Below are positions 31,171-33,797 of a stretch of DNA of 64,000 nucleotides, piece by piece. The notes under the pieces are model-generated. The model was given only the letters and a program-made list of their open reading frames with translations, had not been told where the DNA came from and ran no database searches. This stretch comes from Ketogulonicigenium robustum (lineage in GTDB: Bacteria > Pseudomonadota > Alphaproteobacteria > Rhodobacterales > Rhodobacteraceae), in NCBI RefSeq assembly GCF_002117445.1, contig NZ_CP019937.1, forward strand, positions 621,501 to 685,500. The letters run 5' to 3'. Each line of letters opens with the position of its first letter. Within the stretch, counting starts at the first letter, position 1. Made by a program: the position numbers and the translations under genes.

Positions 31171-31233
31171 TTCATTCTCCCGGTTGGCTGGGGGCGTGCG
31201 TTCCGACCCCCGATCGTTTTTGATCTGCCCATG

Positions 31234-31331: not shown

Positions 31332-31775
31332 TTATTGATCGGTCGAGTTTTTGCCCGATTCCATGTCCAGCCCCATCACAATCGCGTCGACCTGCGTGCC
31401 GTCGGTCAGGTGATAGTAGCCGCGCCTGCGCCCGATCTGCGCAAAGCTCGCGCGCGAATAAAGGGCTTGGGCCGCATCGTTGGTCACCGCAACTTCGAGG
31501 AAGACTTGCGCTACGCCGCGCAGGGCGAGCGAAGCCAGAAATTCCCGCAGATTGCGGGCCGCCAGCCCTTGGCGCTGGGCGGCGGGCGCTGTGGCGATAG
31601 TGAGGATCTCGGCCTCGTCCGCGACGATGCGGGCCAGCAAAAAGCTGCGCGCATCGCCGACCAGCGTGACGCCGGTCTGCTGCAGCAACGCTGCAAATTC
31701 AGCCTCGCTCCACGGGCGCTGCTGGGTGAAGGCCTGCGCGTGGGTGGCGGCGAGTTCTGCGGGCGAGGGAGGCAT
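31332..31775 (-). CDS. rimI: ribosomal-protein-alanine N-acetyltransferase (RimI-like)
   Basis: The 147-residue GNAT acetyltransferase has the acetyl-CoA loop in 'ATAPAAQRQGLAARNLREFLASL' (R/Q-x-x-G-x-A pattern) and the C-terminal 'FLEVAVTNDAAQALYSRASFAQIGRRRGYY', the RimI signature (E-V-x-x-x-N-x-x-A-x-x-L-Y). RimI acetylates the N-terminus of S18 or other proteins. It lies 6 bp after tsaB, and the tsaB-rimI association is widespread, supporting the call. Confidence 0.88.
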   Translation of the reverse strand: MPPSPAELAATHAQAFTQQRPWSEAEFAALLQQTGVTLVGDARSFLLARIVADEAEILTIATAPAAQRQGLAARNLREFLASLALRGVAQVFLEVAVTNDAAQALYSRASFAQIGRRRGYYHLTDGTQVDAIVMGLDMESGKNSTDQ

Positions 31776-31781
31776 AGGGGA

Positions 31782-32354
31782 TTAGGGAAGAATCTGGGGG
31801 GCAGGGTCGCGCGGCGGGGCGGCGTCGGCTGCGCGGACATAGACCGGCGCCGGGCGCGGCTGCGGCTGGCCCGCGCGCGCCGCACCAATGCGGGCGATGG
31901 CGGCGACGAGATCTGCGGGCGCTGGTGGCTCGGCGGGGGGCTTTTCGGGGTCGAAAACCTCGGGCGCGGCGGCGGTGCCATCAGCATCAAAGTGCTGGCG
32001 ATAGGCTTGGCCGCGGCTGCCGGGCAGGGTGATGGTTGCGGGCAGGGTTGCGCCTTGTGCCAGCACGTCGAATTGACTGACTCCTATCGCGGGCACGCCC
32101 AAGCCCAGTGCCAACCCACGCGCGGCGGCCACGCCAATGCGGATACCGGTGAAATTGCCCGGGCCGGTGCCGACCGCGATGCCACGCAAATCAGCCATTT
32201 CATGGCCGCTTTCGGCGATCAGCGTGGCGATCATCGGCATGAGCCGTTCGGCCTGACCTTTGGCCATTGTTTCGACGCGGGTGGTGAGTGTGCCGTCATC
32301 GGACAGCAAAGCGGCCGCGCAATGCGCGGCCGATGTATCTATCGCCAAAATCAT
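31782..32354 (-). CDS. tsaB: tRNA N6-threonylcarbamoyladenosine biosynthesis protein TsaB
   Basis: TsaB partners TsaD and TsaE in forming t6A37 on ANN-decoding tRNAs. The 190-residue protein begins 'MILAIDTSAAHCAAALLSDDG', the ASKHA phosphate motif of the family, followed by 'HEMADLRGIAVGTGPGNFTGIRIGVAAARGLALG', its most diagnostic block. The C-terminus is Ala/Pro-rich and short of the usual 220-230 residues. It sits between nfuA (3 bp) and rimI (6 bp) in one minus-strand operon. Confidence 0.92.
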   Translation of the reverse strand: MILAIDTSAAHCAAALLSDDGTLTTRVETMAKGQAERLMPMIATLIAESGHEMADLRGIAVGTGPGNFTGIRIGVAAARGLALGLGVPAIGVSQFDVLAQGATLPATITLPGSRGQAYRQHFDADGTAAAPEVFDPEKPPAEPPAPADLVAAIARIGAARAGQPQPRPAPVYVRAADAAPPRDPAPQILP

Positions 32355-32357
32355 CGA

Positions 32358-32915
32358 TCAGGCCGCAACAGGGCGCACTTCCAGCACTTCGGGGATGTAG
32401 TGGCGCAGCAAATTCTCGATCCCCATTTTCAACGTCAGCGTCGACGAGGGGCAGCCCGCGCACGAGCCTTGCATATAGAGGTAGACGATACCGCGGTCGA
32501 AACCGTGGAACGTGATGTCGCCGCCGTCTTGGGCGACTGCCGGGCGCACGCGCGTATCCAGCAATTCCTTGATCTGTTCGACGATTGCGCCATCTTCGCC
32601 GTCGTGCGCGCGGTGGGCGCTGACGGTTTCGCCTTCCATCACGGGCAGGCCCGACTGGAAGTGTTCCATGATCGCGCCCAGAACGGCAGGCTTCAGGTGC
32701 GCCCATTCAAGGTCGTCGGCCTTGGTCACGGTGATGAAATCATACCCGAGGAAAACGCCGTTCACACCCTCGACCGCGAAAAGACGCTGCGCCAGCGGCG
32801 ATGCGGTGGCGGTCTCGACCGACGGAAAGTCGGCGGTGCCCAGTTCCAGCACTTGCTGGCCCGGAAGAAACTTCAATGTGGCGGGGTTCGGGGTCGATTC
32901 GGTCTGGATGAACAT
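32358..32915 (-). CDS. nfuA: NifU family Fe-S carrier protein (NfuA/NFU1-like)
   Basis: The 185-residue protein carries Fe-S clusters to client apoproteins. The N-terminal Nfu_N domain begins 'MFIQTESTPNPATLKFLPGQ', identical in style to mitochondrial NFU1. The C-terminal NifU domain contains 'GDITFHGFDRGIVYLYMQGSCAGCPSS', whose CxxC binds the cluster. It leads an operon with tsaB and rimI. A strong promoter (TTGACC, 18 bp, CATAAT) lies at 32944-32973, and an Irr-box-like palindrome sits at 32983-32997, implying iron-dependent control. Confidence 0.94.
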   Translation of the reverse strand: MFIQTESTPNPATLKFLPGQQVLELGTADFPSVETATASPLAQRLFAVEGVNGVFLGYDFITVTKADDLEWAHLKPAVLGAIMEHFQSGLPVMEGETVSAHRAHDGEDGAIVEQIKELLDTRVRPAVAQDGGDITFHGFDRGIVYLYMQGSCAGCPSSTLTLKMGIENLLRHYIPEVLEVRPVAA

Positions 32916-32943: not shown

Positions 32944-32973
32944 ATTATGCCGCAAAACCACACTCGCGGTCAA
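32944..32973 (-). promoter_or_regulatory. sigma-70 promoter of nfuA
   Basis: On the minus strand TTGACC (32973-32968) and CATAAT (32949-32944) are separated by 18 bp, with the nfuA ATG about 28 bp further. It is among the best sigma-70 matches I noticed in the window. Confidence 0.6.
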
Positions 32974-32982
32974 GGTCGTTTA

Positions 32983-32997
32983 TTAGAATGATTCTAA
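32983..32997. promoter_or_regulatory. putative Irr box upstream of nfuA
   Basis: TTAGAATGATTCTAA is a perfect 7-1-7 palindrome and fits TTAGAA-N3-TTCTAA, the iron control element recognised by Irr in alphaproteobacteria. It ends about 10 bp upstream of the nfuA -35 hexamer, a position compatible with activation or modulation by Irr when iron or haem is low. The downstream gene encodes a Fe-S carrier, which fits that regulon. The factor identity is inferred from motif and context. Confidence 0.6.
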
Positions 32998-33023
32998 AAT
33001 ATACTGTAATATAGAAATGCTTC

Positions 33024-33050
33024 GGGCCAGCCCCCGAATGGGGCCGGCCC
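33024..33050 (-). terminator. terminator of the small exported protein gene
   Basis: On the minus strand an 11-bp stem (GGGCCGGCCCC with GGGGCTGGCCC, one G-U wobble) closes a 5-nt loop, 24 bp after the stop of the gene at 33074. The following sequence is AT-rich (GCATTTCTATATT) but has no clean T tract. Confidence 0.55.
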
Positions 33051-33073
33051 GTGCACATGCGATGGATTGACGC

Positions 33074-33415
33074 TTAGTTCAGCTCGATCAGCTTGCTGTC
33101 GACAACGTCACCGTTGATTTTTAGTTGAGCGATCAGGTCGCTGGCGGGAACCTTGGTGCTGATCAGGCGGATGTCAGCGGTGGCACCAGCGCCAACTTCT
33201 TGGCTCGAGACCAGTTGGCCCAGCTCGCCACCGTTCGAAGTGTAGACTTCCAGCGTAGCGGGGCTGCTGGCGTTGACGACATCAAAAGTCAGGCCTTTGC
33301 CCGGTTCGATTTTGTCGGCGGTTTGGAAGAAACCACCGGGTTGGGCGGCGATCGAAGCGGTACCGACAACAGCGGCAAGAACAGTGGCGGTAGCAAGGGT
33401 AAACACGTTTTTCAT
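33074..33415 (-). CDS. small exported protein of unknown function
   Basis: The 113-residue precursor starts at ATG 33415 with AAGGA about 10 bp upstream. It has a signal peptide 'MKNVFTLATATVLAAVVGTASIAAQ' cleaving near Ala24, and a mature part of ~90 residues that looks all-beta ('LTFDVVNASSPATLEVYTSNGGELGQLVS', 'ATADIRLISTKVPASDLIAQLKINGDVVDS'). No cysteine, lipobox or membrane helix is present, so it should be periplasmic or secreted. I do not recognise the family. It has its own terminator-like hairpin, and a TATTAT box at 33471-33466 about 50 bp upstream, so it is probably monocistronic. Confidence 0.75.
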   Translation of the reverse strand: MKNVFTLATATVLAAVVGTASIAAQPGGFFQTADKIEPGKGLTFDVVNASSPATLEVYTSNGGELGQLVSSQEVGAGATADIRLISTKVPASDLIAQLKINGDVVDSKLIELN

Positions 33416-33797
33416 TTTTCTAATCCTTTGATCCGCATGGGGCATTGCCCAACAGTACGGTGTTTATAATATGACGGCTGGATGGTCGTTTTGGTGAAGC
33501 ACCGCATCCTGTCGTCGTTGTGTGAACCGTACTTGTAGCCACCAAAAGAAATGTTCCAGATCCGCGCTGTTCACAAAAAATGGCTGAATTTGTGATCGGC
33601 TTTGCCCCTTGAAAAATCGCAAAACGCTATATTCGGCGCGGAAGTTGCCGGTTTCAAAGAGAAACTTGGGGTTTGAAATGCACTTGGCCCCCGAAATTTG
33701 TTCTTTTTTCGCCACAAAAAACGGCACATCACAGATTTGTGAATGTACCGTTTTTACATTTCTTTACGTATTACAGGGAGTTAACCGCTGGTAACCC
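33416..33797. other. 382-bp non-coding region, AT-richer than its surroundings, with inverted repeats
   Basis: It carries the upstream region of the small exported protein gene at its left end (TATTAT on the minus strand at 33471-33466). Further right are three inverted repeats: TCACAAA/TTTGTGA (33571-33595), TTTCAAA/TTTGAAA (33652-33678), and a long imperfect hairpin (33717-33755). A minus-strand frame of 87 codons at 33464-33727 has no ribosome binding site or recognisable motif, and I do not call it. The region could encode a small RNA or bind regulators. Confidence 0.55.
33717..33755. terminator. imperfect hairpin with A/T-rich flanks, possible bidirectional terminator
   Basis: AAAAACGG (33717-33724) pairs with CCGTTTTT (33748-33755). 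Inside, ACAT pairs with ATGT and CACA with TGTG around a GATT loop, with one mismatch and one bulged A. A runs on the left and T runs on the right give it terminator character on both strands. It lies 43 bp beyond the stop of the zincin-like gene, so it may terminate that transcript. Confidence 0.5.

Follow-up and report, generated by a model that had tools for sequence, protein, structure and literature searches.

Irr binds its DNA box when haem is lacking, and represses or activates according to the position of the box; direct activation is common (PMC7762939). In R. sphaeroides, the Irr regulon comprises mbfA, ccpA and the P3 promoter of isc-suf. The first two of these were the sites predicted for this species by Rodionov 2006 (PMC3413700), and iscR was added in PMC6956336. 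At ccpA the box precedes the start by ∼40 nt, and loss of irr raises expression 1.8-fold under low iron (PMC3413700). The suf P3 box, TTAGAAATATTCTAGA, which Irr binds, is found ∼50 nt ahead of the start, and iron depletion induces this promoter significantly only in the irr mutant (PMC6956336). Binding of the R. sphaeroides protein in vitro is weak (about 0.8 uM), and two predicted suf boxes were not bound. The gene nfuA falls outside both Rodionov 2006 sites and goes unnamed in the main texts consulted on Irr of R. sphaeroides.

The nfuA genes of E. coli and P. aeruginosa respond to iron and Fe-S status through another regulator, IscR, and a different site. IscR, whose action depends on its own Fe-S cluster, represses nfuA, and the P. 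aeruginosa gene rises when iron falls (PMC6084964). A matching promoter design is found in other Alphaproteobacteria, in promoters beside irr that carry the same box and, a few bases on, TTGAC; these drive rubrerythrin, not nfuA. The present analysis concerns a palindrome upstream of nfuA in Ketogulonicigenium robustum, within a stretch of 64,000 nucleotides (contig NZ_CP019937.1, positions 621,501 to 685,500), hereafter termed the window.

The nfuA locus

The palindrome TTAGAATGATTCTAA is exact and is located upstream of a TTGACC-N18-CATAAT promoter on the minus strand, the only sigma-70-like site detected between positions 31200 and 33500 (Table 1). Both elements had been proposed in the original prediction and were confirmed; the distance between them, given there as about 10 bp, is 9 bp when measured to the -35 hexamer. 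The predicted transcription start would place the centre of the box near -53.

Table 1. Features of the nfuA locus (window coordinates)
Feature	Position	Strand	Basis or remark
rimI, ribosomal protein S18 acetyltransferase	31332..31775	-	TIGR01575; 6 bp after tsaB
tsaB, t6A synthesis subunit	31782..32354	-	TIGR03725; 3 bp after nfuA
nfuA, Nfu-type Fe-S cluster carrier	32358..32915	-	Nfu_N and NifU domains
Predicted transcription start	32937	-	Inferred, ∼6-7 nt past the -10 hexamer
-10 hexamer CATAAT	32944..32949	-	Promoter search; CATAT in relatives
-35 hexamer TTGACC	32968..32973	-	Promoter search; TTGAC kept in relatives
Putative Irr box (ICE), TTAGAA-TGA-TTCTAA	32983..32997	.	Sequence, genome rank, conservation upstream of nfuA
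17-bp form of the box, ATTAGAATGATTCTAAA	32982-32998
Strong hairpin, likely terminator	33021..33053	-	-32.6 kcal/mol, z -4.3; followed by GCATTTCTAT

The hairpin beyond the box probably ends the upstream gene and separates it from nfuA. A gene upstream of nfuA (33074-33445, minus strand) encodes a protein of 123 residues with a signal-peptide-like start and no match in Pfam or NCBIfam.

The genes tsaB and rimI follow nfuA with hardly any intervening sequence; the rimI product scored 86.2 bits against its family model (cut-off 86.4). Among 77 nfuA loci, tsaB followed nfuA in 67, and in 76 rimI lay no more than 1.5 kb away. The preservation of this order supports a common nfuA-tsaB-rimI transcript, as originally predicted.

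Rank of the site in the genome

In the window, the palindrome is the only match at up to two mismatches, where 0.23 would be expected. At least one match appeared in 21 of 100 shuffled versions, and this count, taken alone, is not decisive. The 2.7-Mb genome contains three sites within one mismatch of TTTAGAANNNTTCTAAA, located before mbfA, a gene for a small cysteine-containing protein, and nfuA. Allowing two mismatches added ahpC (492261) and iscR-suf (1026734), together with three random-looking sites. At three mismatches the search was at the level of noise (20 sites, versus 37 in the reversed control), and therefore only the top sites were interpreted.

A weight matrix was constructed from 22 mbfA promoter sites, all of them from other Rhodobacteraceae genomes. 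Outside the window, scoring covered the sites returned by the mismatch search, a list that may leave out true sites of lower score. Among the sites scored, the one before nfuA ranked first in the genome with 31.3 bits. It was followed by the organism's own mbfA (30.2), iscR-suf (25.7), ahpC (24.9), hemA (20.4) and the small-protein gene (18.7). The maximum was 18.3 bits in one simulated genome of the same size with the dinucleotide composition of the window, and the second-best site in the window scored 8.1. The nfuA box thus stands with those of mbfA, suf and hemA, as had been anticipated for a genuine Irr site.

Several of the other sites deserve description. The small protein (65 residues with several cysteines; L006:2202-2399, minus strand) has an Irr-like box ∼80 bp upstream (2482-2498), which by the mbfA matrix is hardly above chance; the protein lacks a Pfam or NCBIfam match and may be a small Fe-S protein. 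The Irr-like box of ahpC (L007:2262-2299) is located ∼18 bp upstream of the gene, most of which reads N in the sequence used. A weaker Irr-like box, TTTGGAACCATTCTTAT (L015:2281-2297), precedes hemA, the product of which was identified as 5-aminolevulinate synthase (655 bits).

Conservation of the box upstream of nfuA

Conservation was analyzed in 81 nfuA loci, comprising the window and 80 loci from the closest named genomes; the loci are related, and the counts below are consequently not independent. At up to three mismatches, the site was detected before nfuA in 54 of the 81, compared with ∼0.3 of 81 in composition shuffles, and when either C or T was allowed at position 14 the number rose to 58. 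The expectation that the palindrome would be conserved in relatives was thereby borne out. Nearly all of the boxes are located 69-86 bp before the nfuA start codon. Core positions of the box carry 1.7-2 bits of information, versus 0.02-0.39 bits in the 30 bp upstream. The box was also present in four further Rhodobacteraceae genomes and in the one relative from the same genus. For mbfA, which served as the control gene, 22 of 29 other loci had the same motif immediately ahead of the coding start (up to four mismatches).

The commonest form in relatives, TTTAGAAYNRTTCCAAA, has a C in the promoter-proximal half-site. In 43 of the 58 nfuA boxes (loci L016-L095) this half-site is TTCCAA, not TTCTAA, while the mbfA boxes mostly have TTCTAA; the nfuA version is perhaps a tuned, weaker half-site.

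The distance from the box to TTGA is 3 bp in 24 of 44 loci of relatives and 2 bp in nine of 44, with a second group at 5 bp. In Ketogulonicigenium (the window and its genus relative, L097) it is 8-9 bp, and the box is 5-6 bp further from the -35 hexamer than in most relatives. This shift could weaken or change its effect in the genus.

Co-occurrence of irr and the box

Three genes of the Fur family were detected in the genome. The product of one passes the cut-offs of two NCBIfam equivalog models for Irr, TransRegIrrA (196 bits, cut-off 150) and FeRespRegIrr (191 bits, cut-off 170). The irr gene called for by the original prediction is thus present; it adjoins fabA, and its product carries the HPH haem motif described for the R. 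sphaeroides protein (PMC3413700). The other two, a Fur/Mur-like and a Zur-like protein, fall below the cut-offs of the Fur/Mur and Zur models. An IscR-type Rrf2 protein is also encoded.

Among the relatives, irr exceeded the cut-off in all 50 box-bearing genomes tested and in 18 of the 23 that lack the box (Fisher p = 0.002, with counts not corrected for phylogeny and some genomes being metagenome assemblies that are possibly incomplete). The retention of irr in most of the boxless relatives argues against Irr control, and indicates that the box is not essential to the control of nfuA.

Across the class, the combination of box and TTGAC was observed in 54 of 385 genomes, and irr was present in 53 of these 54 (243 irr-bearing genomes in the test, counted by hand; again without correction for phylogeny). 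Outside the family, the combination adjoins irr in 31 of the 40 loci read. The genes behind it are mostly those of rubrerythrin, otherwise of a catalase, a peroxiredoxin and other proteins, and the notion that the class-wide matches beside irr represent nfuA was rejected. In many alphaproteobacterial families these elements form a conserved irr-box-rubrerythrin unit, in which the box lies directly downstream of irr with TTGAC within a few bases (L098-L137).

None of 25 nfuA loci from outside the family had an upstream box within two mismatches, despite 24 of them coming from irr-bearing genomes. The box before nfuA is therefore not an old alphaproteobacterial trait; rather, control of nfuA by Irr looks like a change that occurred within the Rhodobacteraceae line.

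Probable control of nfuA by Irr

The presence of irr, the conservation of the palindrome and its rank in the genome support the reading of the site as an Irr box, and nfuA is probably under Irr control, whatever the sign of the effect. When haem or iron is short, Irr would bind the box, which lies a short distance ahead of the -35 hexamer, and change the transcription of nfuA, with damping at low iron; when haem is available, Irr would release the box and the nfuA promoter would run free. If binding occurs, we consider damping somewhat better than an even chance, activation appreciably less probable, and a lack of measurable effect improbable, judging by analogy with R. sphaeroides. The lean towards damping, to which not much weight is given, derives from the ccpA and suf P3 boxes of that species, which share the motif, lie similarly far upstream of the start and damp.

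The main alternative retains both the box and the regulator, with Irr acting as an activator that increases nfuA expression together with that of suf when iron is low. Such an arrangement would suit a box that is located upstream of the -35 hexamer at a nearly constant spacing in relatives, and some genes are known to be activated by Irr (PMC7762939); moreover, P. aeruginosa nfuA rises ∼3-fold on iron depletion, albeit through IscR (PMC6084964). Nevertheless, the -35 hexamer is strong, both of the measured R. sphaeroides boxes at a similar distance damp, and the shift in Ketogulonicigenium amounts to half a helical turn. Taken as a whole, activation appears rather unlikely.

It is much less probable that a regulator other than Irr, be it Fur/Mur, Zur, IscR or an unknown protein, uses the palindrome as its operator. 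The genome does encode candidates of the three named types, and IscR targets nfuA in E. coli and P. aeruginosa (PMC6084964), but the motif is identical to the one at mbfA in the same family, the R. sphaeroides version of which is bound in vitro by Irr, and across the class the pattern accompanies irr and adjoins it in many genomes. A chance palindrome devoid of function, for which the matches in about one fifth of the shuffles might speak, was rejected as highly improbable in view of the positional conservation across the family and the genome rank; a loss of function confined to this one species would still be compatible with these results.

Under the favoured reading, control of nfuA by Irr, tsaB and rimI would be carried along as passengers unless an internal promoter overrides Irr. 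For this part of the original prediction the support comes from the operon layout, with no other promoter found; TsaB and RimI levels, t6A or S18 acetylation might vary with iron. The full proposal, in which nfuA moved under Irr in Rhodobacteraceae, t6A synthesis (tsaB) and S18 acetylation (rimI) thereby became iron-responsive, and iron shortage tunes translation through the operon, is regarded as doubtful.

Significance

The nfuA gene would represent a sound new target of a known regulator, and not a novel type of system. In the open literature searched, no paper names nfuA as an Irr target, Rodionov 2006 and RegPrecise lying outside that search, and an earlier prediction for another Rhodobacterales genome is possible. 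Since IscR represses nfuA in E. coli and P. aeruginosa, the wiring of nfuA here would differ from theirs whatever the sign of the Irr effect: a lineage-specific change of regulator, with an Irr box in place of IscR control. The Irr of Rhodobacteraceae was previously thought to have few direct targets. A late step of Fe-S delivery, and possibly t6A synthesis, would now join the Irr-responsive genes in this abundant aquatic family, and nfuA and the two protein-synthesis genes behind it are probably tied to the iron supply of the cell.
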